Virus record (IMG/VR): IMGVR_UViG_3300049482_000051
Coordinates: 1 to 52,570 of that record
DNA length: 52,570 bases
Source of the DNA: a virus
Direction: 5' to 3' (one strand)
Made by a program: the position numbers and the translations under genes. A model generated the notes under the pieces. That model worked only from the letters and a program-made list of their open reading frames with translations, was not told the origin of the DNA and searched no databases. This document shows positions 10,265 through 24,840 of the stretch, in pieces; the first letter of the stretch is position 1, and each line of letters opens with the position of its first letter.

Positions 10265-10367
10265 CTGGGCGGATCCTTTGCATGAAGTCTGCGGTCATGA
10301 GGATATCGCGGGCCAGGGTCCAGGCGCCGCTGTCAAGTAAATCCCAGTCCGCACGCGCGCCGTACAT
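10008..10367 (-). CDS. Possible overlapping gene in another frame
   Basis: A 119-codon frame that starts inside the helicase 3' end and overlaps the signal/linker part of the 3D-domain gene by 257 bases on the same strand. Its predicted product is acidic and reads like a folded protein, with GC-rich codons at its 5' end similar to its neighbours. The start has a poor ribosome site. It could be a real overlapping gene or a chance open frame; the 3D frame downstream of 10050 is clearly coding, while the 5' part is undecided. Confidence 0.3.
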   Translation of the reverse strand: MYGARADWDLLDSGAWTLARDILMTADFMQRIRPDAIVPLLPPLFFSCILATSSTDDIEHIWYDDGGDARDCNTHRVDPRRPCPEFWDFLAALPVAPRGFNATDDNDFQGIYTMGCYRS

Positions 10368-11859
10368 CTTGAAAAGACGAGACCGATGCGTCGAATACCA
10401 TGCCGAGGCGGATACTCTCAAGGATATCTGACTGGAGCCGATTGGAAACAAGGTCTGTATGGGTGCACCGATGCACTTGGCCACGTCGACATGTGCGCGC
10501 GAGTGCCTGGTCATAGGATTCTGGTCTCCAACTGATGTCGGTGGCGACACTGCGACGGGCTCGGGTGAGTTCGATGCTGATGCCGACCGTCTCGATCTGG
10601 GCGAGGAAGCACTGAACGCCATTGGAGGCGGATTGAAAGCTGTGTACACAAGCGGATCGTCTCTCGTCCACCACCGTGCCGTCGACTCTGGCATACGTTA
10701 TTCCTTCTTCTTTGAGTTTAGTTTCGATGTAGTCTAGGCTCTCATGGTACTGGCAGAAGACGACGAGGGGTTGTCCGTCGCTCAATGTATCTAAGATATA
10801 TTGAGTCTTAACCTCTATGCCCTCATGTGCCAGCGCCTGCATGATGGCCATGTGATGAGGGATGCCTTCGTTGGCAGCGATGGCGCGGCGGACTTCGATA
10901 ACCGAGGCGGTATGAACGTCCATCCAGGGGCCGCCGAACTCTTCGGTCAGCTGGTCTTGTTCTGGGATAGTCACGGATTGCGTAACAATCGGGGACTTCT
11001 TAGTCAGCGCGCAGACATTGTGCCGAGCCACAAACTCCTGGAACTTGGTAGCGCCAGGACCCTGTGGTTTCAGAATCTTATAGTGCTTAGTGCCATTGAC
11101 GAAGATTTCTCCGAGGCACCCGAAGTGCGTGGCAGCGTTGAAGTTTGAGGAGAACCCGGCCAATCCTGGCACCGCTAGGTTCATGTTCACTAGGGCTCTT
11201 GGTATGCCCCCGTGAAACATGGTCCCTGAGAGACAGATACAGTCGTCCACTTTGAGTCTAAGCTTGAGGGCATGTTTAGTTCTTCGTGCGGTAATTCCAC
11301 CGAGTAAGTGCGACTCGTCCAGGATGAGCAGTCCTCCGGCGCTAGGAAAACCGGGCTCAAACTTGTGCAAGGAATCGATGGATACGAGAAATACGTCAGA
11401 GTACCCCATCGCTTTGAACCGAGGGATATATACTTTCCAGGCGGCGAAGGCGGTGAGGGTTGTAGCAATGATGACGGGACGGCCCCTAAGCTTTGCAGCC
11501 ACAGCTGAAGCGTAGACCTCTGCCGTGAGCGTCTTGCCAAGTCCGCAGCCGAGTGCCAGAACTCCTCCGGCGCTGGACATCTCTCCTGCTGCATAGAGTT
11601 GATAGGGGTCGGGCGGGTATAAAGTTCCCGATATGCCGATGACATTAGTTCTTCCACCTCGGAGGGCGTCAAGCCAGTAGTCCTGGCGGGCGAAGGGCAC
11701 ATCGTTGCTCCGGAGCCACTGACGCACAGCCTCTTTGCCGTGAGGTCCGAAGACCTCTGGGCTGGCGAGGGCGCTCATCGCGGCGAAGTAGGGCCAGTCA
11801 CTACGGACCAGCGTTTGTTTGCGGCCTTCGCAGAAGTAACCGGTGCTAGGGATAACCAC
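10333..11859 (-). CDS. SNF2-like DEAD/DEAH superfamily 2 helicase
   Basis: A 508-residue protein starting at GTG (11859), one base after the tiny gene upstream, with GGAAG about nine bases before it. The N-terminal RecA-like domain has Walker A GCGLGKT (104-110) and DESH (181-184). The C-terminal domain has a QARTCRRGQ-like motif VI (near 445-458) with the RRGQ typical of SNF2-type enzymes, after VVFCQYHESLDYIE. Such proteins unwind or translocate on duplex DNA and are common beside phage family A polymerases. It likely acts at the fork or in recombination. The N-terminal 90 residues are not assigned. Confidence 0.88.
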   Translation of the reverse strand: MVIPSTGYFCEGRKQTLVRSDWPYFAAMSALASPEVFGPHGKEAVRQWLRSNDVPFARQDYWLDALRGGRTNVIGISGTLYPPDPYQLYAAGEMSSAGGVLALGCGLGKTLTAEVYASAVAAKLRGRPVIIATTLTAFAAWKVYIPRFKAMGYSDVFLVSIDSLHKFEPGFPSAGGLLILDESHLLGGITARRTKHALKLRLKVDDCICLSGTMFHGGIPRALVNMNLAVPGLAGFSSNFNAATHFGCLGEIFVNGTKHYKILKPQGPGATKFQEFVARHNVCALTKKSPIVTQSVTIPEQDQLTEEFGGPWMDVHTASVIEVRRAIAANEGIPHHMAIMQALAHEGIEVKTQYILDTLSDGQPLVVFCQYHESLDYIETKLKEEGITYARVDGTVVDERRSACVHSFQSASNGVQCFLAQIETVGISIELTRARRSVATDISWRPESYDQALARTCRRGQVHRCTHTDLVSNRLQSDILESIRLGMVFDASVSSFQDVRRACGLGFT

Positions 11860-11860
11860 G

Positions 11861-11947
11861 TTAGAACTGCTTCCTAAAGGGCCAGGTGAGGAACCGGAAA
11901 CACCAGAAGATCGCGTAGAGACAGGCAGTCATAGCGTCTAGGAGCAT
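11861..11947 (-). CDS. Tiny membrane protein (28 aa)
   Basis: A 29-codon frame whose ATG overlaps the polymerase stop in a TAATG and whose stop lies one base before the helicase GTG. The product is MLLDAMTACLYAIFWCFRFL followed by a short basic tail, a single hydrophobic helix. The exact fit between two genes, with coupled junctions at both ends, supports a real gene. Function unknown. Confidence 0.6.
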   Translation of the reverse strand: MLLDAMTACLYAIFWCFRFLTWPFRKQF

Positions 11948-14079
11948 TACGCTACCTCCTTGAGTACACTGTAATCTCCGGCATCCATGCGAGGCCAGAA
12001 TTGTTTTTGACACCACTTCTCGTCGTCCCAAAGACTCTTAGAGACTGTGACTGACTTGGGGTCTACATTAATTGCCCATGAATATCCAAGTGTATTCCCC
12101 GGTCCGAAGACTTTGAGCATGTCGTGGCGCGCTTTGAGGACGCACTCGGGCTCGGCTTTCGTGAGGATGAACGCTTCGTCGTGGATCGAGATTTGGATTT
12201 CGTGGCCCATGTCTTCGAGTTCGAGTTGCCCTTTGACGAGCGCGCACCTCGCGAAGAACTGGATGAAGTTTTCGATGGCGATGTTCGGAGTGAAGGCGCG
12301 CGGGGGCTTGTGGCCTGCGAGCACGGAGGTAAGACATGCACCTCGCAGTGTCTCTCGAACCGCCAGATCCCGCCAGCACACGCTCGCAGGCCATTGAGCA
12401 TATCGGGCTCGTACGGAGGAACCTCCGAGACTACGATCGACAAACAGCTCAAGCAGGTTGCGGTCTGGAGCACCCGGTAGTTCGTATAGGGCTTGTAGGG
12501 CTGAACTTGGGTCATGGGCATACGACAGGCGGGACACAGCGGCTTCCATCCAGCGGCCCAGTCTGGCAAACTCGGGGTGGCGTTGGTGGAACAACTCATG
12601 GACCTTCTCTCCTACGACTCCGATGATTTCGTGACATCCGAGAATCTTGACGTGACCACGGGTGCGCCCCGAACAGCGAGACCACCGTCGTTCTTCCGCC
12701 AGAGTGCAGAGATCAGCAATCGAAACGTCTCCTCTTGCGACCACCTGGAGCAACTGTCCCATCCAGGTTTTGATCCCCATGAGGTACCCGAGTCCAAGGA
12801 CGGCGGCTTTGAAGATTTGGCGTAGCGCTTTGCCGTTCGGTGTTGTCGGGTCGATCTTGAGACCCGTCGACCACTCACCGAAAGCCACATAGGGGTCGGC
12901 GAATAGGTCTTCGGTAAAGAGGTGTTGTATGTACTCGGACCCAGCCACCAGTCCTTCGACTCGGTACTCCACGTTTGCGAAGTCTCCTCGGACCCAAATG
13001 TATCCTTCGGGTAGGACGAAGCTGCGGCGGAAAGGCTCAGCAATGAGCTTGTTATGCTTCGGACAGTTGTGGAGGTTAAGGCCTTTTGTACCTTCGTTGC
13101 GCGAGGCAAACCGCAGCGTATGCGCAGCCGCATAACTAATCTCACAGTCTACGGCTAGGACGCCAGAGAACTTACGTAGGCCTCGGCCATAGCTGAGGTA
13201 CTTGTTCAGTTCTGACGTCTTGGTGATGGTAGTCCGTCCGGCGTCCGACATGTCGGCGAGTTCGGCGGGGTTTATTTTCTTCAGTGATATCGACTTTTTC
13301 GTAAAGTCGATAGCGAGTCGATCCAGGAGCAAAGCCTTAATGGCATGCGGCTTCACTGACTTCGGGGACATCTTGAGTGCTTCATCAATTGAGGTGGGAG
13401 CCACGTCCCCATGCCATCCGAAGGCTTTGAGAATCTCCGGGTCATCGTCAAACGCATGGGCGACTTCAAGAGCCGCAGCGCCCGAGGCGTTCGCCATGTT
13501 CTCTACGGCAGCGAGGACTTGGTCCTGGTCGACCTCGAAGTAGAGGCGCTTGGCTCGGTTGCTCAGTTCACAGACGCGGAGTTCACTTGGAGAGACTAGT
13601 TTCAGAACTCGAAGATGGATTTCCCGTAGCGCCGCAACGTCGGCCACGCAGTATTGGGCGAGTTCCTCACCTGATGAGGTGAGTAGATCCACCTTGAGCT
13701 TTTTATACTTGAGACCAAGGGTAACTGAGAGGTTGTCGAGGGAGTAGCCACCGGGCTGGTTCGGCCAGGCAGCCCGAGATAGCTCCATGGCGCAAACCAT
13801 CCGCTTGGGGTACGGTAGGCCCAGCGTGTAATGCAGCACCCGGGAGTCAAAGGAACTATTGAATGCCACGAATACGACGTCCTCACACTCACCCAGTTCA
13901 CGCAGGTAAGCGAGAAGTCCTTCGCCGGGCTTTCCAACATGGTATTTAATCTCCTCGCCGTCCAAGGCATAGGCCAACATGGTCACTTCGGTCTGCTCAC
14001 AGTACGACCGGGTGGTCATCTTGGTCAGCCGAAGATCCTTGGTCATCTTCGTTTCAAAGTCGTAGTAGAAATAACGCAT
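11947..14079 (-). CDS. DNA polymerase, family A, with 3'-5' exonuclease
   Basis: A 710-residue replicative polymerase. Exonuclease motifs: YDFET (D7, E9), FNSSFD (73-78) and YCVADVAALRE (143-153, D147). Polymerase motifs: motif A RGDFANVEYR (D366, E371), motif B with R420, K424 and Y432, and motif C HDE (633-635). All catalytic residues for proofreading and synthesis are present. There is no N-terminal 5' nuclease, as in T7-type enzymes. It begins in a TAATG with the upstream ATPase gene and is followed by a tiny membrane gene and the helicase, a replisome cluster. Confidence 0.95.
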   Translation of the reverse strand: MRYFYYDFETKMTKDLRLTKMTTRSYCEQTEVTMLAYALDGEEIKYHVGKPGEGLLAYLRELGECEDVVFVAFNSSFDSRVLHYTLGLPYPKRMVCAMELSRAAWPNQPGGYSLDNLSVTLGLKYKKLKVDLLTSSGEELAQYCVADVAALREIHLRVLKLVSPSELRVCELSNRAKRLYFEVDQDQVLAAVENMANASGAAALEVAHAFDDDPEILKAFGWHGDVAPTSIDEALKMSPKSVKPHAIKALLLDRLAIDFTKKSISLKKINPAELADMSDAGRTTITKTSELNKYLSYGRGLRKFSGVLAVDCEISYAAAHTLRFASRNEGTKGLNLHNCPKHNKLIAEPFRRSFVLPEGYIWVRGDFANVEYRVEGLVAGSEYIQHLFTEDLFADPYVAFGEWSTGLKIDPTTPNGKALRQIFKAAVLGLGYLMGIKTWMGQLLQVVARGDVSIADLCTLAEERRWSRCSGRTRGHVKILGCHEIIGVVGEKVHELFHQRHPEFARLGRWMEAAVSRLSYAHDPSSALQALYELPGAPDRNLLELFVDRSLGGSSVRARYAQWPASVCWRDLAVRETLRGACLTSVLAGHKPPRAFTPNIAIENFIQFFARCALVKGQLELEDMGHEIQISIHDEAFILTKAEPECVLKARHDMLKVFGPGNTLGYSWAINVDPKSVTVSKSLWDDEKWCQKQFWPRMDAGDYSVLKEVA

Positions 14080-16505
14080 TAAGTTCCTTCTAAGGCGCTA
14101 TGGAACTCAAACCGATCATTAACACGACTAAGCTTCCACCCTTGTACTGCGCCCGGTTCTCCCGGGAGCAGCCAGGTATCCCCGTTCCCCGGCACCGCCT
14201 CGTTCAGGCTATCCGTGAGCGCCATGAGCACGGCACGGTTAGACACGCGGCGATTGGATCCCGTGAGAGCCTGCACATAGTCCTGATACGGACGCCCCGC
14301 CATGTTATACGTCTCGGCCCAGGCGTTGAGCAGATCCTTGGTATTGCAGCCAGTCCGGCCACTCACAGCGGCACAGTTCTGCTTGAAGCGCTTGAAGTCG
14401 TCAATGCTCATGCCATCAAAGAGGTATGAGATACGCAACTTCAATGCCGTGCCAAACTCCATAGCAGCCACGAGGCCCGAGTCCACCGCAGTGATGACGT
14501 GGCTACGGAGCCGACGCTGCATCAGGTCGAACGCGGTGTCGAGTAGCGCATAGCCTTCTTCCATGTCGACTTTAGCTCGCTGCATGAGAATTGCGCAGGC
14601 AAGGGTACGATGCGAGTCAAATCGGAGGCCCCTGGAGGAAGATTGTCGGCCCATAGCTTTGTAGACTTGAGCAAGACTCGTTTTCTCCAGGAAGGCGTGC
14701 ATCCCGAGACGCATTCGGAGGCTAAGTGCGCCGGTACGAATTTCTTCGAGAACATCTGAGCGCTTGCGCATCTCATCAGTAAGCGGGCCAAGCCAGTGAG
14801 CCAGGCTGCGATTTTGAATGTCTGGTGGGACTTCGTACACTTTAGCGCTGAACACAGGGCTGGATCTGAAGGCAACAGTACCCTCATTCTCGTACACCCG
14901 TCCCGAAGCCACGCTAGATCCCGTACAAAGCGACTGCATATTGTCGTGAGAGAGGATGTGGGTCTGATTCTTTGGCGGGCGAAACTCATCGACTGCGATG
15001 CTGCCCGTCGTCCGAATCTCGCCTGCAACTGTACGAATGTCTGGAGCGCTAGACGAATCGTTGATCGAGACAAGCCGCGAGATTGCTGGGTTCGTTGCCT
15101 TGGCGTAGACCAGCGTCGCTTGAGACTTCCCTTGGTTCGTTGAGTTGGACGGCGACGGATCTGAGGGCATGAACACGACAGCCGGGTACTCCACGGCCAA
15201 CTCGGGGCGCGAGTGACGGAGAAGGGAAGCCGCGATTGGAACATCGAGCAGAGTCTTGAGAGCAAGAGTTGCTTTTTCATCTGCGCACCATGAGGTATCG
15301 TAGTTAGGGAAGGCTCCCAGGAAGATGTCAGAGGGCCAGGATTCTTCGTAGGTCTTTGGGAGGCCAGACGCGAAAACGCGGCGCTCGTCTCCGAAAGATG
15401 CCGGGTTCGTACAATTCCAGTCAAAGTCAAGCACTTGTGGTTGGTCAAGTGTCTCCCTCGAAATAATGCCGCCAATAGCGGACCACAAGCCCGACATCCG
15501 GAGTCCCGTTTGGTAGAACCCGTGGAAAGACGAGGTATCTGGTACTGCCATACTCCACGGTCCGCCCAATACGTTTGGGGGCAGCAGCATAAGGCTGCGT
15601 TTCCGGAGCAAGTGGTTCGTCTCCAGGCTGCTCAGGATACTCTGCATCGCCAGGGTCGTCAGCCATTCGGTTTTGCCTTTATTGGATTTAGAATCTAAGG
15701 CTGCCAGGATACTGGTGCGTGCGGTGTGTGAGGAAGCAAAGGTATTAGAGCGTTCTAAGGGGATTACGGAACTAAGCCCTCCGTGATGGGCGATGATTTC
15801 CTGAGTCGTGGAAACTCTTACGTGTTTCAAAACATGCAGGAGTGCCACCATATTCAGCCAGCGAGGAGCATAGCCCTCCGCCGTATCTCCGAGGGCGCGA
15901 CGGGTCTTGGTCCACTGGATCCAGCCTAATTGGCTTGGCCATCCTGTGGTTGCGTGGGCCTTGAGTAGGGATTCATTCCAATCTTGCTCCGACTCATCGG
16001 GGCTGAAAGGACACCCAGGAGCGATTGACGTTAGCTCATGGGCCAGACGGGCATGGCTGACAAAGCCAGCACCGGCAATGAAGCACCGGATTCGAGACCA
16101 AACGAACTCAGCGGTTTTCTCATCTAGGGATTCCGGAAGAAATCCATAGATTGCGGACAACTGACACCAACGGATCCACACTTCAAGTCCAGTCCCGGGC
16201 GAGGCCCTCCAGGCTGGTGCCGCTTCGGCAAGGATCTCGTCAAACACACTATTCGCGCCCTCGGAGTCATTACCCAGCTTGAACATCTTTTCGCCGTAGA
16301 TGGCCATAGAAACATCAGCAGCCCGAGTGTAGGGCTCGCGGAGTTTCCCAACTCGTGCGATAAAGTCTGTCCAAACTTCGTCCTCATTCTTACTTTCCAA
16401 GAAATCTACATATTCCTCGACAACGTCATCAGGGGCACCCTCGGGTTTATGTGCATTCCAGTAGTTCCGTTTGCTGGCGTCGTCGGGGAACTGTAGAGTC
16501 GGCAT
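14079..16505 (-). CDS. Putative replicative P-loop ATPase (SF3/AAA+-like)
   Basis: An 808-residue protein directly upstream of and coupled to the polymerase. A strand-loop segment ends in NQGKS (457-461), preceded by VVFMPSDP, which fits a Walker A; SIAVDEF (502-508) fits a Walker B; and 526-555 and 563-569 (an arginine before a hydrophobic stretch) resemble the sensor region of viral SF3-like or AAA+ ATPases. A second, weaker GKT occurs at 277-279. I expect a primase-helicase or helicase-loading role, but no zinc-binding or TOPRIM primase motif is visible. Low sequence familiarity makes this a notable unknown of the replisome. Confidence 0.6.
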   Translation of the reverse strand: MPTLQFPDDASKRNYWNAHKPEGAPDDVVEEYVDFLESKNEDEVWTDFIARVGKLREPYTRAADVSMAIYGEKMFKLGNDSEGANSVFDEILAEAAPAWRASPGTGLEVWIRWCQLSAIYGFLPESLDEKTAEFVWSRIRCFIAGAGFVSHARLAHELTSIAPGCPFSPDESEQDWNESLLKAHATTGWPSQLGWIQWTKTRRALGDTAEGYAPRWLNMVALLHVLKHVRVSTTQEIIAHHGGLSSVIPLERSNTFASSHTARTSILAALDSKSNKGKTEWLTTLAMQSILSSLETNHLLRKRSLMLLPPNVLGGPWSMAVPDTSSFHGFYQTGLRMSGLWSAIGGIISRETLDQPQVLDFDWNCTNPASFGDERRVFASGLPKTYEESWPSDIFLGAFPNYDTSWCADEKATLALKTLLDVPIAASLLRHSRPELAVEYPAVVFMPSDPSPSNSTNQGKSQATLVYAKATNPAISRLVSINDSSSAPDIRTVAGEIRTTGSIAVDEFRPPKNQTHILSHDNMQSLCTGSSVASGRVYENEGTVAFRSSPVFSAKVYEVPPDIQNRSLAHWLGPLTDEMRKRSDVLEEIRTGALSLRMRLGMHAFLEKTSLAQVYKAMGRQSSSRGLRFDSHRTLACAILMQRAKVDMEEGYALLDTAFDLMQRRLRSHVITAVDSGLVAAMEFGTALKLRISYLFDGMSIDDFKRFKQNCAAVSGRTGCNTKDLLNAWAETYNMAGRPYQDYVQALTGSNRRVSNRAVLMALTDSLNEAVPGNGDTWLLPGEPGAVQGWKLSRVNDRFEFHSALEGT

Positions 16506-16794: not shown

Positions 16795-18327
16795 TTACCC
16801 TTTGGCGCCTACGAGAGTTTGTTCTTCCGGATCCCCGTCAATCGTCACGCTAAGCACTTCGTCGTACTTGGCTTGGATGCTGATACCCAGGTCACTCTTG
16901 ACGGTGAAGGTGTCGCGGTCCATGGCGGTCAAGCGACCGTCGAAGGCATGGGACTTCGCCAGAGTCTCGACGACCACATGGCAGCCGAGGTGATTCTGGA
17001 GGTCCTTCATCCTCGGTAGACTGAGCGTCAGTTGCGACGTGATGTCAGCGATGAAGCCCCAAGAGACTTGGCCAGTCCCGCCGTCATGGCGCTCATAGGA
17101 TAGGCCGATGTCGCTGATGGACGTGCAGACCCCGACGCGCTTCTCGTCGTTATTCAGGACGATCACGACACGCCGACCGATGAAGATACCCGCGTTGTTT
17201 GAGTGCCACACGGGCGTCAGAGTAACCGTGGAGGTCTCTTTGTTGGCCAGGTAGTCATTGATCGCGGCCTCGTCGGCAGCCGTGGCAGCTTCCAGGGCAT
17301 CCGTGTCGTCCTTAGGCTCTGCGAAGGCCAGGAGCGCGTCAGGTACGCCGGCGAGTTCTTTGGCGCTAAGGAGCTTCATGGCCCAGCGAACGGAGGGCTT
17401 GGTGGGCTTGAGGGTTTCGACTTGTTCGAGGACAAAGTCCAGGAAGTCCTCGCCCTCCTCGGGCAACCAGTCGTACCGATCGACTGCGTGCTTCAGGTCT
17501 TTGGCTTCGTCGATAGTCAGGATCTTGCGATGGACCAGAGAGCCGCAGCGCTTACCGAAGTTATCAGTAGCTTTCTTCCGAGCCTCTTTGTATGTCTCCA
17601 TGCGCTTTTTGGCCGCTTCGTGGTCGTACCCTTGGTTAGTCCCAGTATTGCTGCTGCTCCCGGCGTCTGGCTTCGTCGATGGACTGTTGCCAGTTTGCAT
17701 TGCTCGGCCCTGACGAAAATTTCCGGCCTGTGATCCTCCGGCCTGATGTGCTGGTGCCTTGTAAACCTGGTACCCCATGTTCGAGTAGATGAGGCCTGTC
17801 TCCTTGTCCTCGTACCAGCCACTCTTGTTCAGGAGAACCACGCCGCGTGGCTCGATCACGGCTACCTTGTTGCCGCCTCCCATATACTCCTCGACCAGAT
17901 GCTGCCATGGACGCTCCATGTACCAGCCGTCAGGCAGCTTGGTCAAGATGTCCTCAGTGAAGGCCGAGGTATCCGAGCGGCCCTTGCCATACTCCACGAG
18001 CTTCTGGTAGGGCAGGATGCCGTTGTGGGCCATCGCAACCTTGCCGTCCTTGACCCAAAACGGATGAGTATTGGCCTCGTCCTTGGATCCGTGGGTGCCG
18101 ATGCGGAAGTGCAGCATGTAGAAGATGTCTTTGGCTGGCAGGTCCAGCAGAGGCTGCATGGCGGCTCGGAAGTCTGCGAACTTCATGAGGCCCTTGACGA
18201 CGCTGATGCCGCCATTGACATCGGGGTAGGCGATGCCTGCACCGTCTGGATTACGGCTCCACATTTGCTGGAGAACTTCGTCCGTTGGGTGCGAAGCGCC
18301 GGAGACTTTGACTGCGATGATGCACAT
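16795..18327 (-). CDS. Class II glutamine amidotransferase (Ntn-hydrolase), GAT-II
   Basis: A 510-residue protein starting Met-Cys: after Met removal, Cys2 is the N-terminal nucleophile. Class II motifs follow: NPDGAGIAY (26-34), HFRIGTHG (73-80, R75) and AHNGIL (100-105). It therefore should release ammonia from glutamine, or cut a similar amide. Residues about 190-235 form a Gly/Ser/Gln/Asn-rich linker, then a helical and a beta-rich C-terminal domain of unknown role. AGGAC lies seven bases before the ATG. The adjacent upstream gene is an amidoligase, a pairing known from peptide- or metabolite-amidation systems. The ammonia acceptor is unknown. Confidence 0.88.
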   Translation of the reverse strand: MCIIAVKVSGASHPTDEVLQQMWSRNPDGAGIAYPDVNGGISVVKGLMKFADFRAAMQPLLDLPAKDIFYMLHFRIGTHGSKDEANTHPFWVKDGKVAMAHNGILPYQKLVEYGKGRSDTSAFTEDILTKLPDGWYMERPWQHLVEEYMGGGNKVAVIEPRGVVLLNKSGWYEDKETGLIYSNMGYQVYKAPAHQAGGSQAGNFRQGRAMQTGNSPSTKPDAGSSSNTGTNQGYDHEAAKKRMETYKEARKKATDNFGKRCGSLVHRKILTIDEAKDLKHAVDRYDWLPEEGEDFLDFVLEQVETLKPTKPSVRWAMKLLSAKELAGVPDALLAFAEPKDDTDALEAATAADEAAINDYLANKETSTVTLTPVWHSNNAGIFIGRRVVIVLNNDEKRVGVCTSISDIGLSYERHDGGTGQVSWGFIADITSQLTLSLPRMKDLQNHLGCHVVVETLAKSHAFDGRLTAMDRDTFTVKSDLGISIQAKYDEVLSVTIDGDPEEQTLVGAKG

Positions 18328-18368
18328 GGGTAACGTCCTGTATCTTAGGTTTAGGGTTTTTGGTTGGT

Positions 18369-20873
18369 TTAGAAGTCGTGACCGGCCACAGCGGCCCGTG
18401 CGTTGAAGGAAGCCAGGTGGTCAAGGACTGGTTTGTAGCGCTCTCCTTGTTCCGTGAGGAACTTCTTGTAGGACGCAATGCCGATCGTGCCGTTCTTGGG
18501 CAGGGCCTTGTTGCGACAATACTGGATGACGCTGTCGATGAAGAGCACATTGCGGCGGTACTCTGCATATGACGTGGTGGACTTGAAGATCCGGAACTCC
18601 ACGGTTTTCTCCGTCATGTTGACGGCAGCGTATCGCTGACTCTTCCGGGCGTCCAGGTCCGTGGCCAGATGGACCATTTCGCTGACCGGAGTACCTCGGG
18701 CGCCCCAGTCTAACGAAGCATACGTACTCCGTCGACCAGCAAAGTGAACCGTGAGTTCAGGATTGCCGTAGATGAAGCGCTGGACTCGGAGCAAGCCACG
18801 ACCGATTCGGCGTTCTAGGGTGGACTTTTCTCCTTGGGGTAAGGTGCTGGATAACACCTCGAAACCCGGTTTCGAGGTGTGGATATGAATACCACAGCAG
18901 TCGCGCTCAGCCATCTGGACGCTCAGGTACTGGAACAGCGTCTGGAGGGTGCCCTCGTTCTCGTCCATCCAGGCCAGCGAGAAGGGATGCGACACGAACT
19001 CGATACCATCGCCGATAGAGCCGTCGCGCTTGGCGTAGAAGAGGCCCTTGGACAGTTCAATGGCCCGCTTGGCTGTCGGAGTGCGCTCGTAGGCTCCTCG
19101 GCCACACAGTTCAACCTCAGTACCAAAGTACAGTGGTCCTACGCCGTGAAGACGGGCCTTGGGCTTGTAGCTATAGTCAGCGACGACCTGGAAGTTATTC
19201 TTGCGATAGCAGACAGCACAGACGCCGAAGACGTTTGAGGTGGCCTCGAAGCCCTGGCGACACCCCGGGCATTGGTCGACGTGGGAAGCGCAGGCGCCGC
19301 AGACCATATGGGTTGTCTCGTCGGCCCGGATAACAGTGAAGCCACGTTCGCGGCTATGAGCAGCGCCGCAGCGGGGGCATGTCTGGTTCAGGCGGCGAAG
19401 GACGGCCTGTTTGCCCTTGGCGGTAACGGGGTATTTAACTCCGTCGACCGTGATGCTCTCGGTGGGCTTTCCAAGCTTGGCCTTGCCGAGCGTGCCATTC
19501 TCGTTGTTGACCGTGAGGTACCATTCGCCGGGTGCTGCGAGCATACGGACAACGGTATAGCGTGAAATGTTGCTCTCTTCGGCGAAGCGACTTGGACGTT
19601 CAAGCATGGCCGAATGACCGAAGCTAACAAGGCGTGCAGTTCCCGGAAGGTCTGGAGTGCAGACATCAGATACCACGTCGCCGCCGAACATGAGATACAA
19701 GGCGCCTGGGACACGCGGGCCAGGTAGGTTGAGGGTGCCTTGAACAATGTGGGGTTCGAGGCCGTAGACCTGGTCTCCAGTGATGAGCAGTTGCATGCGA
19801 CGATCGCCGTCGGCCATGACAAAGGCGTCTTCTTCCTCAAAGTTGATGTCGACCTTGGACATGGTCCGGAGCCGCAGGGAACGAATGAGTGAGCCAGTCT
19901 CCAGGCAGGTCACGACGCAGCGACGACCGCTGTAGGTGATAATGGTACCAGGTTCAGGGATGTCAGACTTAGGACGCGGGGCTGCCCAAGTGATACCCTC
20001 GGGCTCTGGAACAGTGACAACAGGAAGGCCGCAGTAGCGCAGGCTTCCCTGGAAGAACTCGGACGACGGAGGAACATTGGAGTTCTCCTGGATGTTCTCC
20101 ATGAGAATGGCGCCGTTGTTGTCGACCCAGGCTACGCTCTTATCTGCGACGGCCAGGATCTTGCCATGTGCCTCGCCGTACTTGATGAACATACCGGGCT
20201 CGAACCGAGTAGTCGGGGCGACCGTAGTAAGCTGAGTGAATGGGCCTTTGAGGTCTCCCTGAGGAACGCGGCCCTCAAAGTCAGCGGGCTCAATGCCGTG
20301 ATCGCGGCGCTTGAAGATGCGCTGACGGCCTTCGTGGACAGCGTGAAACAGAGCGCCTGAGGGAACGTCGGTGACTTTGGTAGTGACACCATGAGTAGTT
20401 ACCGTAGTGCCGCCAGGATTGAACGGGCGGTTAGCGGCGTCGAGGAACTGACCAGTAGGCGAGAGGTGAAGAACCTGAACGCCGCCGTTCTTGCCGTGAA
20501 GGATGTTGGGACCTGCGATCATGAGGCGACCACCGCCTTCAAGCTCGAAGAGGCCTGGTTCTACGGTGAACGGAATGTTCGAGGTGTCAAGTTCATTGGC
20601 CTTGTAGGCCGCAGCGATGGCCGCGATGCCGTAGCCCGTGTAGAACTTGAAGCCGTCGACCGTCGAGGACGCGACGTTCTGAAATTGGTGTGTTGCCAGA
20701 GTTGCGGCAACGTTGATTTCTGGGCATGAACCAATGCGGTTCAGCGGTGACACGAAGAACCGGAGGCATCCGGAGCGATCGGTCACGGGAGGTTCGATGA
20801 CTCGGAAATGCGCGCCAGTCGTGTCGACCAGCACGGAGTCTTTGGTGATATCAGTGAGGGCCGAGATCGTCAT
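18369..20873 (-). CDS. Amidoligase (Amidoligase_2 type) with N-terminal extension and zinc ribbons
   Basis: An 834-residue protein. Residues 1-490 are beta-rich and unassigned. Four CxxC pairs (499/502, 525/528, 535/538, 552/555) make two zinc-ribbon-like elements. The C-terminal part (578-790) has the carboxylate-amine ligase pattern: FGTEVEL (E586, E588), KRDGSI (D617), IEFVSHP (E625), GIHIH (H663, H665) and the late NMTEKTVEFRIF (E759, R761). Such ligases use ATP to join an amine or amino acid to a carboxylate. With the neighbouring amidotransferase it could modify a peptide, protein or cell-wall precursor. AAGGAAA precedes the start. A terminator lies just upstream, so it is likely to have its own promoter. 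Confidence 0.85.
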   Translation of the reverse strand: MTISALTDITKDSVLVDTTGAHFRVIEPPVTDRSGCLRFFVSPLNRIGSCPEINVAATLATHQFQNVASSTVDGFKFYTGYGIAAIAAAYKANELDTSNIPFTVEPGLFELEGGGRLMIAGPNILHGKNGGVQVLHLSPTGQFLDAANRPFNPGGTTVTTHGVTTKVTDVPSGALFHAVHEGRQRIFKRRDHGIEPADFEGRVPQGDLKGPFTQLTTVAPTTRFEPGMFIKYGEAHGKILAVADKSVAWVDNNGAILMENIQENSNVPPSSEFFQGSLRYCGLPVVTVPEPEGITWAAPRPKSDIPEPGTIITYSGRRCVVTCLETGSLIRSLRLRTMSKVDINFEEEDAFVMADGDRRMQLLITGDQVYGLEPHIVQGTLNLPGPRVPGALYLMFGGDVVSDVCTPDLPGTARLVSFGHSAMLERPSRFAEESNISRYTVVRMLAAPGEWYLTVNNENGTLGKAKLGKPTESITVDGVKYPVTAKGKQAVLRRLNQTCPRCGAAHSRERGFTVIRADETTHMVCGACASHVDQCPGCRQGFEATSNVFGVCAVCYRKNNFQVVADYSYKPKARLHGVGPLYFGTEVELCGRGAYERTPTAKRAIELSKGLFYAKRDGSIGDGIEFVSHPFSLAWMDENEGTLQTLFQYLSVQMAERDCCGIHIHTSKPGFEVLSSTLPQGEKSTLERRIGRGLLRVQRFIYGNPELTVHFAGRRSTYASLDWGARGTPVSEMVHLATDLDARKSQRYAAVNMTEKTVEFRIFKSTTSYAEYRRNVLFIDSVIQYCRNKALPKNGTIGIASYKKFLTEQGERYKPVLDHLASFNARAAVAGHDF

Positions 20874-21366: not shown

Positions 21367-21582
21367 TTAGAACTTCCTAGAGTTCTTAGCGCGCTGATAG
21401 TCAGCCCAGTAGCCGAAGCCACCGGCAATAATGATGACCAGGAGCATGATGAACCAGAAGGTTACAAGGCCAAGCAACGGCGACATCACCCAGAACCAGG
21501 ACCATGCGGCAATGGCTGTGAGTCCTGCGAGTTTGCAGAAGATGAAGGCGGCTTGGAGCATGGCGATGATAGCGGTGAGCAT
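21367..21582 (-). CDS. Small membrane protein with two or three helices
   Basis: A 71-residue protein that is almost entirely hydrophobic up to residue 57, giving two long or three short helices, and ends in a basic tail (QRAKNSRKF). Size and topology resemble small holins, with basic C-terminal residues facing the cytoplasm. There is no adjacent endolysin, so a holin role is a guess. GGAAAT precedes its ATG, and a terminator-like RNA lies just upstream. Confidence 0.65.
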   Translation of the reverse strand: MLTAIIAMLQAAFIFCKLAGLTAIAAWSWFWVMSPLLGLVTFWFIMLLVIIIAGGFGYWADYQRAKNSRKF

Positions 21583-21601
21583 GTGATTTCCTGTTTTCTG
21601 T

Positions 21602-21684
21602 GTAGCTTAGCTACAACAAAAAGCCGCCGTGCACGAACCCCCAAGACCCGCAGGTCGCATGGATGGGCTTACTGGCACGGCGGC
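21602..21684 (-). ncRNA. Structured RNA/terminator with 9-bp closing stem
   Basis: On the minus strand GCCGCCGTG (21684-21676) pairs with CACGGCGGC (21631-21623), enclosing 44 bases that can form inner stems (CCCA/TGGG and GACC/GGTC), followed at once by TTTTTG. A small hairpin GTAGC/GCTAC (21602-21614) comes next. The T-tract makes it terminator-like, but the large structured loop is unusual and faintly tRNA-like (a seven-base acceptor-like end). It is too short and has no proper T-arm for a tRNA. Confidence 0.5.
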
Positions 21685-21722
21685 TGAGTGGTAACGTAGA
21701 GTTCTTTGAACTATGTCAAGAA

Positions 21723-21806
21723 CTATTTTGAGGCCTTGATGAATCGATAGACAGAGTAGATCCAGATGAGCCATAGAATAGCGTAGACGACGAGGAACGT
21801 AGTCAT
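21723..21806 (-). CDS. Tiny membrane protein (27 aa)
   Basis: A 28-codon frame beginning MTTFLVVYAILWLIWIYS, one hydrophobic helix, then a short basic tail. Its ATG overlaps the previous stop in an ATGA. It ends before the structured RNA. The coupled start and the coherent hydrophobic helix support a real gene. Function unknown. Confidence 0.55.
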   Translation of the reverse strand: MTTFLVVYAILWLIWIYSVYRFIKASK

Positions 21807-22018
21807 ACAGCCAGGAGGGCTTCGGTATCCAAGCCGTACTCAAGGCCAATGTCACGGGCTTCTTCATGCCACTTAGTTCGGTGGAACTGTGACATGGTTG
21901 TGCGAAAGTCATTGAGCATGTCGCGCTCATTGACGCCTCTCGCCTGGGGGAACGGCTTCCCTGAGAACATGGCTACGACGCAGGAGTTGTAGAAGCCCTG
22001 AAGCTTCGTGAGGGTCAT
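21803..22018 (-). CDS. Small hypothetical protein (71 aa)
   Basis: A 71-residue soluble protein, MTLTKLQGFYNSCVVAMFSG..., mainly helical with charged residues in the second half. It is coupled by four-base overlaps (ATGA) to genes on both sides. A different frame (21607-21930) is open here but lies across the structured RNA and was not chosen. Function unknown. Confidence 0.65.
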   Translation of the reverse strand: MTLTKLQGFYNSCVVAMFSGKPFPQARGVNERDMLNDFRTTMSQFHRTKWHEEARDIGLEYGLDTEALLAV

Positions 22019-22317
22019 GACTGGCTTTCTTGGGCGATAGGACGGCGGGGAGAGCCTGAGGCGTCTTGAAGCGCAAAGGCGAGGTTGTTGAGGCGAGTGT
22101 TCATCATTTCTTGGAGCTCTGGGCCACGAGAGAGGATCTCAACGCCTGGGTGCTCAGAGCCACTGGCCTGGGCTAGGAACACAAGGAGTTCGTCGCCTGC
22201 GCTGGCGGCTTTGTGGAGCGCAAGGCCGAGGGCTCGGAGTTTTGAGATAACTAGGTACTGGAAGCAAATGATGAACAGGGCAATAGCGAGGGCTATTGAG
22301 AGGATGAGGGTGGTCAT
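22015..22317 (-). CDS. Single-pass membrane protein (100 aa)
   Basis: A 100-residue protein with a strong N-terminal membrane helix (about residues 3-25) and a polar domain containing short helices and a basic tail. The topology could place the C-terminal domain in either compartment. ATGA overlaps couple it to genes before and after. Function unknown. Confidence 0.7.
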   Translation of the reverse strand: MTTLILSIALAIALFIICFQYLVISKLRALGLALHKAASAGDELLVFLAQASGSEHPGVEILSRGPELQEMMNTRLNNLAFALQDASGSPRRPIAQESQS

Positions 22318-22577
22318 GGTTCTTTCCAGACTAGTTTAACGCGGACTACGAGGCACGTGGGGCCTGCGCGTCGATTGGCTCCTAGGCCAGGCACTGGGGC
22401 CGTAGCGTGCTCGAAGTGGGTGCGGTACTCTACGCAGTCGTGGTACGGCAGTGCCCTGGTGTTCGAGGTCTTAACGTAGGTGTAGGTATCAAAGTCAGCT
22501 GGGCATCCAAAGACTTCGCCGATGGCCAGGTCTTTGAATTCCAGGGTGTTTCCGGTGGCTAGGGCTTTCCAGGGCAT
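22314..22577 (-). CDS. MPW-family paralogue 1
   Basis: An 87-residue protein starting MPW. It has a central FKDLAIGEVF, then TYVKTSN, and ends VRVKLVWKEP. The pattern F-x-DL-xx-G-xx-F, then Y-x-K, then a late strand resembles a small beta domain common in phages. First of eight adjacent relatives. Confidence 0.75.
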   Translation of the reverse strand: MPWKALATGNTLEFKDLAIGEVFGCPADFDTYTYVKTSNTRALPYHDCVEYRTHFEHATAPVPGLGANRRAGPTCLVVRVKLVWKEP

Positions 22578-22579
22578 GT

Positions 22580-22831
22580 CTAGTTACTCCAGCGGAACTT
22601 CAAGGTGTTGAATATAGGGCCATCGCTGGCGCTTGCATGACGCGCAATGGCCGGGGAGCGCGGAGGAATCACAGGCTGTTCGCCGGGGGTGAAGTAATCC
22701 CAGTGGTTTTGGAGAGGCCCTGTCTTTAGCCAGAACTTGGTGGCGGCCATGTGGGCTCGGGAGAACACAGTGCCAACTTCCATAGACTCAAAGGTTACGT
22801 CGCGCTTTACTACTGAGAATGTCCAGGGCAT
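22580..22831 (-). CDS. MPW-family paralogue 2
   Basis: An 83-residue protein, MPWTFSVV..., with TFESMEVGTVF and a WLKTG segment, ending LKFRWSN. It is two bases from its downstream neighbour and keeps the aromatic strand near the C-terminus. The middle is variable and proline-rich. Confidence 0.75.
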   Translation of the reverse strand: MPWTFSVVKRDVTFESMEVGTVFSRAHMAATKFWLKTGPLQNHWDYFTPGEQPVIPPRSPAIARHASASDGPIFNTLKFRWSN

Positions 22832-22832
22832 T

Positions 22833-23093
22833 TTAGTCCTTCCATTCTAGGCGGTACATGAACACCTTTGCGTTGTCACGGAAGGGTGAGTGTATTCTGG
22901 CAACTGGAGAAGCCTTGGGTACGGGGCCTTCGTTGGAGTCGGAGGTGTTTATGGAGAAGCACTCGGTTTCGGTGTGCTTGACGCGGCCTGGATAGCGATA
23001 GCCGGGGGAATAGGTATGTAGGGATACGCCTAGGCCTATTGGTACATTGCGGAATGTGCTTAGGCCAAGGCAGGATTTGATGACCCAGGGCAT
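22833..23093 (-). CDS. MPW-family paralogue 3
   Basis: An 86-residue protein, MPWVIKSC..., with FRNVPIGLGV and a tail YRLEWKD. A short G-P-V-P segment precedes the C-terminal strand. A single base separates it from each neighbour. Confidence 0.75.
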   Translation of the reverse strand: MPWVIKSCLGLSTFRNVPIGLGVSLHTYSPGYRYPGRVKHTETECFSINTSDSNEGPVPKASPVARIHSPFRDNAKVFMYRLEWKD

Positions 23094-23094
23094 T

Positions 23095-23346
23095 TTAATC
23101 TCTCCATTCTAGCTTTATTTGGTGCCAGGATTGTTCTGGGCTATGCGAGCCTCGGCTACTGTCGAGGGGTCGTGGTATGGGAATATATCCGCGATCTAGC
23201 CTTTGGAGCCTGCCCTCGTGGTTGAGAATCAACACGGACCCAACCTCTTCGCCTACTGTGTTCTCCATGCACTGAATCGTTGAGCCTGGAGGCAGGTGCT
23301 TCATGAGGCTAGGATGATCTGCTATCCAGGTGACAATCCATGGCAT
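23095..23346 (-). CDS. MPW-family paralogue 4
   Basis: The start is the ATG at 23346 (MPWIVTWI...); a longer frame from 23406 lies over the preceding gene. The 83-residue product ends IKLEWRD like paralogue 3 and has a P-I-P-R-P segment. The N-terminal GEEVGS part is more polar than in its relatives. Confidence 0.75.
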   Translation of the reverse strand: MPWIVTWIADHPSLMKHLPPGSTIQCMENTVGEEVGSVLILNHEGRLQRLDRGYIPIPRPLDSSRGSHSPEQSWHQIKLEWRD

Positions 23347-23348
23347 GA

Positions 23349-23585
23349 CTAAACATCCTTGGTGGTGAGGGTGCCCTCCAGTTCGATAACTTCGTATCCT
23401 ACGCACCAGACGTGCTCTTTGCCAGACTCGGTGCCAGTAAGGGTCATGGAGCCATTGGTGCTATGTTTCAGCTTCATGAACACAACGCCGGGGAACTTCT
23501 CGTCCCGGAATAGGTCTCCGCCTTCCAGGTGGTCGATGACAACTTTGCGGCCCCGGACTTCGCGGTTCAAGGTAATGCGTGGCAT
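23349..23585 (-). CDS. MPW-like paralogue 5 (divergent)
   Basis: A 78-residue protein starting MPRITLN, with IDHLEGGDLF and GVVFMKLKHS. It lacks the Trp at position 3 and the final Trp strand, but keeps the G-x-x-F and Lys pattern. It may be a distant relative kept in the array, or an unrelated small gene of the same fold. Confidence 0.65.
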   Translation of the reverse strand: MPRITLNREVRGRKVVIDHLEGGDLFRDEKFPGVVFMKLKHSTNGSMTLTGTESGKEHVWCVGYEVIELEGTLTTKDV

Positions 23586-23586
23586 G

Positions 23587-23847
23587 TTATATTTCCTTGT
23601 ATTCTACGTTTACGAGTTGGCACTTATAGTCTGGACGCAGGAACACATTCTCGGCCACGGGGCTCTGGATTGAAGGCGTGGGACTTAGGGTCAACGGGGA
23701 GTAGCTATGCGCGTCGCGCTTGATGAGGGGAGTCCAGGCGGTGTCGCCTATGTGAAGGTCTGCGTGGCCTATGATAGACCAAGTTTGCCCTACGGCCATG
23801 TCGCCGAAGCGAATGTGAGGGCCTACGCTTTTTATTACCCAGGTCAT
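23587..23847 (-). CDS. MPW-family paralogue 6
   Basis: The start chosen by alignment to relatives is the ATG at 23847 (MTWVIKSV, 86 residues), with AGGA nearby; an ATG four codons upstream at 23859 overlaps the previous stop in an ATGA. It has FGDMAVGQTW, then TPLIKRD and SPTPS, and ends VNVEYKEI, where Tyr replaces the usual Trp. Confidence 0.7.
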   Translation of the reverse strand: MTWVIKSVGPHIRFGDMAVGQTWSIIGHADLHIGDTAWTPLIKRDAHSYSPLTLSPTPSIQSPVAENVFLRPDYKCQLVNVEYKEI

Positions 23848-23855
23848 AAGGATCC

Positions 23856-24122
23856 TCATTCAATCCAGGCTAGGGTGGCGCGGTAGACCAGGTGTTCATC
23901 ACTGTAGTATTCGTGGTATCCGTTGAGTGAGGGAACGGGAGTAGCGCCATGGTGCCTAGGGTGGTTTGCGTCAACATACTGTTCGGGGCCGACCTTGATG
24001 AGGGTGTAGAGGTGTCTGGTCATGAGCAACTCGGGATCGCACGCTGTGGCCCAGGCTTCTCCGACTCCGATTTCAGAGAACGGAACGCGGGTATTAGATA
24101 TGCTTCGCATTACCCAGGGCAT
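23856..24122 (-). CDS. MPW-family paralogue 7
   Basis: An 88-residue protein, MPWVMRSI..., with FSEIGVGEAWA, YTLIKVG, then TPVPSLNG and a tail RATLAWIE. Most similar to paralogue 8, sharing GEAWA and LIK, so the two may be the latest duplication. Confidence 0.78.
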   Translation of the reverse strand: MPWVMRSISNTRVPFSEIGVGEAWATACDPELLMTRHLYTLIKVGPEQYVDANHPRHHGATPVPSLNGYHEYYSDEHLVYRATLAWIE

Positions 24123-24125
24123 AGG

Positions 24126-24404
24126 CTACTCCACATAGGTAAGGATGGCTTTGTAGACAGTGCGGGATGGGGAGAAGTCATGACGGGTCCAGGTGCTTGA
24201 TACCCGCAATGAGGACAGATCAGGAACGGGTAATAGGGCTAGCGTTACATCAAGGTACAGGTGGTCATCGAACTTTATGAGGGACCTGACTCCTGGATTC
24301 ATGATGTAGTAGGGCACTTCGTAGCTTGATGCCCAGGCTTCTCCGGGGAGTAGGGTGCCATAAAGCACGGGCTCGGGGTTTATGGATTTCATTAGCCAGG
24401 GCAT
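24126..24404 (-). CDS. MPW-family paralogue 8
   Basis: A 92-residue protein, MPWLMKSI..., with LLPGEAWASSY, RSLIKFD and PVPDLSS, ending AILTYVE. Shares GEAWA and SLIK with paralogue 7. First gene of the array in the direction of transcription. Confidence 0.78.
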   Translation of the reverse strand: MPWLMKSINPEPVLYGTLLPGEAWASSYEVPYYIMNPGVRSLIKFDDHLYLDVTLALLPVPDLSSLRVSSTWTRHDFSPSRTVYKAILTYVE

Positions 24405-24411
24405 AGGACAC

Positions 24412-24840
24412 CTATTCCTCTAGGAGGATACCGCACGGCGTTTCTGAGCCGTCTTCGTGGACGTGGACGAACATAGCCAGGAGGCTTTCAGGCATGCACA
24501 GCTTCTCAGACTGGTCAAGGCCTTCGTAGCTTACTAAGCTGGCGTAGGTGTTGGGGGTTCTTTGGGCGGCAAAGATGTGCTGGGTGTGGCTATGTAGGCA
24601 GCGAATCATGAGAATCTTGGGTACTTCGTCCTTGGTCCAAGGGCGCCACTTAGGTTTGGGCTTGACGCGGAACTCAAAGTTGCCGTTGAGCATCTTGTGC
24701 CAGGAGTCGAAGTCACGGGAGTTCATGTCCTGCCAGCGAGGCGGGGTTTGGTCATCGACAAGGAAGGAGTACTGAATTGCCTTGCCACCGACGAAGGCCT
24801 GGAGGATTGGGATGAGGAACGAGGCTTCGTTGACGTTCAT
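24412..24840 (-). CDS. Hypothetical phage protein with KPKWRPWT motif
   Basis: A 142-residue protein. Its middle, VKPKPKWRPWTKDEVP, resembles a small conserved phage family whose role is not known; the motif usually follows a helical N-terminal part as here. The second half is hydrophobic with a likely beta domain. It is the gene before the tandem MPW array and lies just downstream of the regulatory gap at 24.87 kb. Confidence 0.72.
   Translation of the reverse strand: MNVNEASFLIPILQAFVGGKAIQYSFLVDDQTPPRWQDMNSRDFDSWHKMLNGNFEFRVKPKPKWRPWTKDEVPKILMIRCLHSHTQHIFAAQRTPNTYASLVSYEGLDQSEKLCMPESLLAMFVHVHEDGSETPCGILLEE

Follow-up and report, generated by a model that had tools for sequence, protein, structure and literature searches.

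Eight small minus-strand genes in a virus genome as a probable divergent expansion of a phiEco32-type phage domain

Introduction

What are the eight small genes that stand side by side on the minus strand of a 52,570-base virus record, and what might they do for the phage? The genes, of 78-92 codons each, occupy positions 22314-24404 of the record, the whole of which is called the window here. A preliminary description of the locus, whose coordinates, strand, gene number and gene lengths agree with the open reading frame list, took them for paralogues of no described family and suggested interchangeable host-interaction or anti-defence proteins. In the literature we found nothing on point about small early phage paralogues arranged in tandem. 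In this study, we asked whether the genes are copies of one protein type, whether that type occurs in other phages, and which function fits it best.

Results

Layout of the array

The features of the array are as follows; the leave-one-out scores are explained in the next section.

24126..24404, minus strand: g1, 92 aa, start MPWLMKS; leave-one-out 20.3 bits, reached by none of 500 shuffles
23856..24122, minus strand: g2, 88 aa, start MPWVMRS; the most central copy and the one modelled with AlphaFold2; leave-one-out 31.7 bits
23587..23847, minus strand: g3, 86 aa from MTWVIKS; leave-one-out 17.2 bits
23349..23585, minus strand: g4, 78 aa, start MPR; the outlier; leave-one-out -1.6 bits
23095..23346, minus strand: g5, 83 aa, start MPWIVTW; leave-one-out 17.3 bits
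22833..23093, minus strand: g6, 86 aa, start MPWVIKS; leave-one-out 12.7 bits
22580..22831, minus strand: g7, 83 aa, start MPWTFSV; top new match of the phiEco32-type profile
22314..22577, minus strand: g8, 87 aa, start MPWKALA; clearest F-x-D-L-x-x-G-x-x-F ... Y-x-K-T-S module
22314..24440, minus strand: Shine-Dalgarno sites of g1-g8, each located in the preceding gene or directly beyond its end, e.g. ...TGGAAGGACTAAAATGCCCTGG

From g1 to g8 the genes are separated by 3, 8, 1, 2, 1, 1 and 2 nt, and g8 overlaps the next gene by 4 nt. The 8-nt gap between g2 and g3 presumes the MTW start of g3, which fits a Shine-Dalgarno GAGGAT; starting g3 at an ATG farther upstream would yield MRILMTW and an overlap with g2. 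That all eight genes begin with MPW was an overstatement, since six do (g1, g2 and g5-g8), g3 having MTW and g4 MPR, and the continuation [V/L/I]-x-[K/R]-S occurs in four genes (g1, g2, g3 and g6) rather than five. Only two other MPW-started reading frames of at least 40 codons were found in the window, neither of them adjoining another.

Predicted pairing with the anti-Shine-Dalgarno sequence at all eight starts ranges from -5.4 to -7.5 kcal/mol; among minus-strand ATGs as a whole, 22% pair at -4.5 kcal/mol or better. The placement of these sites suggests that the array genes are translationally coupled. Because each site lies at the end of the preceding gene, the conserved ending W-[K/R]-[D/E] partly reflects the ribosome-binding site that serves the following gene. 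The products span a pI range of 5.6-9.8, g6 (9.3) and g7 (9.8) being basic and five of the eight acidic, with net charges of -1 to -4. Conserved junction DNA that might promote cassette exchange was considered and rejected, as a 28-nt junction repeat is common to just two junctions and identity upstream of the array starts is at background. No convincing promoter for the array was found in the window.

Kinship among the eight genes

Each gene was scored with a profile built without it, using 500 shuffles and 218 other open reading frames of the window as controls. Seven genes (g1, g2, g3, g5, g6, g7 and g8) scored 12.7-31.7 bits and exceeded all 500 shuffles (maximum 9.4) and all 218 reading frames; g4 failed. 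When the first four residues were removed, g2 and g8 remained strong and g5 and g7 still exceeded all controls, but g1, g3 and g6 fell to the edge of noise. The N-terminal MPW segment supplies much of the profile signal. The outlier g4, which may or may not belong to the family, also matches the phiEco32-type profile described below only weakly (6.0 bits, E 3.2), and its single-sequence structure model (pLDDT 41.5) was not usable.

Among pairs, z scores were 12 for g1-g2, 10.6 for g1-g3 and 6.4 for g2-g8, and pairwise identity averages 25% (range 15-36%). No long repeat was found in the array DNA beyond short matches. This low identity, together with the lack of a long DNA repeat, indicates either old duplications or fast-evolving genes, as had been proposed at the outset. 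Taken together, at least seven of the eight genes encode versions of a single small β-strand protein.

Predicted fold

AlphaFold2, given the alignment of the seven copies as its only input sequences, returned a small β-fold for g2 with pLDDT 82.8 and pTM 0.75, so that one confident model fits the seven-copy alignment. In the model, a long N-terminal strand (residues 3-14) leads into a turn with F-x-x-L-x-x-G; short strands follow at 23-25, 41-43 (the LIK/VK strand) and 48-51, and the fold closes with a strand at 78-86. In a viral Foldseek library its best matches are small uncharacterised phage proteins, including ones from Kuravirus and GAP52, with probability 1.00. These include gp021 of Cronobacter phage GAP52 and a 74-aa protein of Escherichia phage 172-1, both assigned to their Foldseek entries by length and motif, and TM scores to the 172-1 and GAP52 members are 0.55-0.71 (up to 0.61/0.71). 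The E-values, 6.7e-3 at best, are modest because the proteins are so small. A search of the PDB with the same model gave no significant match to any solved structure, and no solved inhibitor fold resembling it was found there as a sign of a known anti-defence protein.

Relation to the phiEco32-type domain

Although the preliminary description knew of no family with this architecture, profile, hhalign and PHROG evidence places the copies with a domain of phiEco32-type phages. phiEco32, a Kuravirus, has nine small genes with the module in its rightmost region (95-98, 104, 109 and 113-115), of which phi32_95-98 and 113-115 form tandem runs, and the rightmost region of phage 172-1 likewise has runs of small genes with F-x-x-L-x-x-G-x-x-F ... 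Y-x-K. A profile of 11 such proteins, none from the window, was searched against the open reading frames of about 1.2 Mb, and with close homologues of its own members set aside its best new matches were g7 (E 5e-5) and g8 (E 2.4e-4). In the reverse direction, the window profile placed phi32_98 (E 0.058) and then 172-1 ORF117 (E 0.84) on top among 7484 reading frames. Profile-profile alignment with hhalign scored 26.2, compared with a maximum of 11.9 over 200 column permutations and 6.3 when reversed. Most of the sequence link comes from about 35 N-terminal columns.

No single PHROG model matched the array significantly (best E 0.039-0.2). Weak matches linked g7 to phrog_6570 and phrog_10911 and g8 to phrog_12612, and three of the four weak matches of these two genes are to PHROGs that contain phiEco32 proteins: 6570 (phi32_104/113), 10911 (98/109) and 12612 (95). 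At the curated cut-off, Pfam matched neither the array nor ten phiEco32-type relatives. By these searches the array is a divergent relative rather than a member of any one existing PHROG. The PHROGs of the domain (6570, 7431, 7832, 9955, 10911, 12612 and 16423) are all catalogued without function.

The two sets are alike in several ways. The phiEco32 proteins have 72-85 aa and the same F-x-x-L-x-x-G-x-x-F ... Y-x-K core, their runs have almost no spacing, and each genome carries many very different copies in a leftward cluster opposing the structural genes, with a glutamine amidotransferase/amidoligase pair farther downstream. In contrast to the array, the phiEco32 copies mostly start with M-K-[I/V] and lack P-x-P and the W-[K/R]-[D/E] end, the longest run found is four instead of eight, and sequence identity between the two sets is very low. 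From sequence comparison and modelling together, the array is a big and strongly diverged expansion of a small phage domain that seems to be widespread and is uncharacterised.

Copy number, exchange and other carriers

Within the phiEco32 group both copy-number variation, which the preliminary description had proposed to count, and slot replacement are visible. In the tandem run of four shared by phiEco32 and 172-1, three slots are 52, 89 and 83% identical, whereas the fourth holds phi32_98 in one and ORF117 in the other, different members with 26% identity, a visible case of module exchange. One phiEco32-type member gave one to three matches per record over 77 phage records.

GAP52 gp021 (phrog_22099; UniProt K4F7Y3 by length and motif), the best Foldseek match (TM 0.55/0.62), shares the core motif with the array, but is the sole copy found in its genome and has other termini. 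In Vibrio phage K469, VPHK469_0104 and other composite proteins carry the same module at the C-terminus, fused after a different N-terminal domain instead of standing in a run of single modules. A Pseudomonas phage apparently has one copy in the region covered, where the motif is evident and the profile score sub-threshold. Like the array products, phi32_gp79 is small, and it acts on the host as an inhibitor of sigma70 transcription (PMC8948821); as a functional relative it was rejected, since its sequence lacks the module. It is the product of a middle gene and no relative of the array proteins.

A second MPW array, which the preliminary description had proposed to seek among metagenomic phages, did not appear in the searches that follow, in which records very close to the window may not have been represented. 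In the eight-gene alignment, conservation was nowhere high enough for a degenerate scan. Searches of phage records by tblastn with g1 and g8 gave motif-level matches only, and IMG/VR peptide scans, for which g1, the terminase and the amidoligase-like protein served as queries, gave no close relative. A pattern of three tandem MPW starts hit 11 stretches in IMG/VR and 105 in a bacterial and archaeal genome collection, all of them chance or low-complexity matches by a junction test; three IMG/VR contigs matched by accident through low-complexity (MPWCPV/MPRCTV)n frames. The array was also absent from 80 terminase relatives.

Genome context

Left of about 27.5 kb the genes of the window run mostly leftward, and among them are the following.

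10333-11859, minus strand: helicase
11947-14079, minus strand: DNA polymerase
16795-18327, minus strand: class II glutamine amidotransferase

Right of 28.2 kb lie rightward structural genes (terminase, portal, major head protein and tail fibre), the terminase being at most 41% identical to anything found, and the sign of the GC skew flips where the leftward and rightward genes diverge. An amidoligase-like gene lies about 1.5 kb downstream of the array. It adjoins the amidotransferase gene (16795-20873, minus strand, for the two) and encodes an 834-aa protein with an amidotransferase/amidoligase-type C-terminus, which matches phrog_16683 and Mycobacterium phage proteins annotated 'glutamine amidotransferase domain'. 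phiEco32 has a comparable pair, phi32_83/84, likewise downstream of a small-module run, albeit with only the amidotransferase core aligning.

Some neighbouring genes were also noted. Between the DNA polymerase and the amidotransferase lies an 808-aa gene without PHROG or Pfam match (14079-16505, minus strand). Directly upstream of the array, a 142-aa gene (24412-24840, minus strand) weakly matches phrog_21668 (E 0.006) and two unannotated human gut phage records. Downstream are small genes (21367-22317, minus strand), and the products of 22015-22317 and 21367-21582, with strongly hydrophobic N-terminal stretches, look like membrane proteins.

Discussion

We hold with moderate confidence that the array is a tandem expansion of the phiEco32-type β-domain whose members act as exchangeable host-interaction modules. 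No tested function was found for any array copy or relative. In the phiEco32 group, early genes occupy the right-hand extreme of the genome (PMC9965538); their cluster is described as the most diverse one, probably serving host takeover (PMC8948821). By analogy the array members are most likely early host-interaction modules, and the host-interaction or anti-defence role first suggested for them is plausible from their position and the phiEco32 parallel. In the simplest scenario, the copies would be made together from a leftward transcript starting near 27.5 kb, probably early in infection as judged from position and strand. The β-core would serve as a scaffold, and the loops and C-terminal halves, which differ greatly between copies, could give every copy its own host partner, candidates being proteins of transcription, metabolism or defence, so that the array would work as a set of co-translated, exchangeable modules. 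A more specific version, which we put forward tentatively, is a cassette bank of binders of host or defence proteins on one β-scaffold, one target per copy, whose members would be acquired, lost and traded between phages, as happens in the phiEco32 group.

Alternatively, the copies may be subunits of one phage hetero-oligomer, such as a β-barrel ring, serving phage replication or transcription, their divergence reflecting fixed positions. Eight copies with predicted coupled translation, in the same leftward operon as the DNA polymerase and helicase, would suit such an assembly. We nevertheless regard it as doubtful, because the number of subunits in a set is normally conserved, whereas copy numbers in phiEco32 and 172-1 vary, with copies both scattered and in runs and members exchanged, and the Pseudomonas phage seemingly has just one in the region covered.

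Nucleic-acid binding is common among small β-barrels, and the copies could be such proteins with overlapping roles. The basic g6 and g7 would be in keeping with this, but the five acidic copies and the lack of a match to any solved nucleic-acid-binding fold in the PDB search make it unlikely. The wide spread of charge is easier to reconcile with different targets than with one shared nucleic-acid ligand.

Dosage or drift, in which a single gene was duplicated repeatedly with little specific function per copy, would account for the very low identity between copies. This is very unlikely given that all eight frames are open, tightly packed and provided with a Shine-Dalgarno site, and that the N-terminal strand, F-x-x-L-x-x-G and the aromatic strand at the end persist as a core pattern. 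That the genes are non-homologous and alike merely in composition is extremely improbable, since, although g1, g3 and g6 lie at the noise edge without their first four residues, full-length scores exceed every control in seven of eight genes, the profile-profile score is twice the permutation maximum and one confident model is shared.

The array belongs to a domain that is seemingly widespread in phages, often with several very different copies per genome, and it argues for uniting many separate 'hypothetical protein' families in one superfamily. With its run of eight and its link to the phiEco32 set, which is tractable in E. coli, it is a good place to ask what these modules bind.
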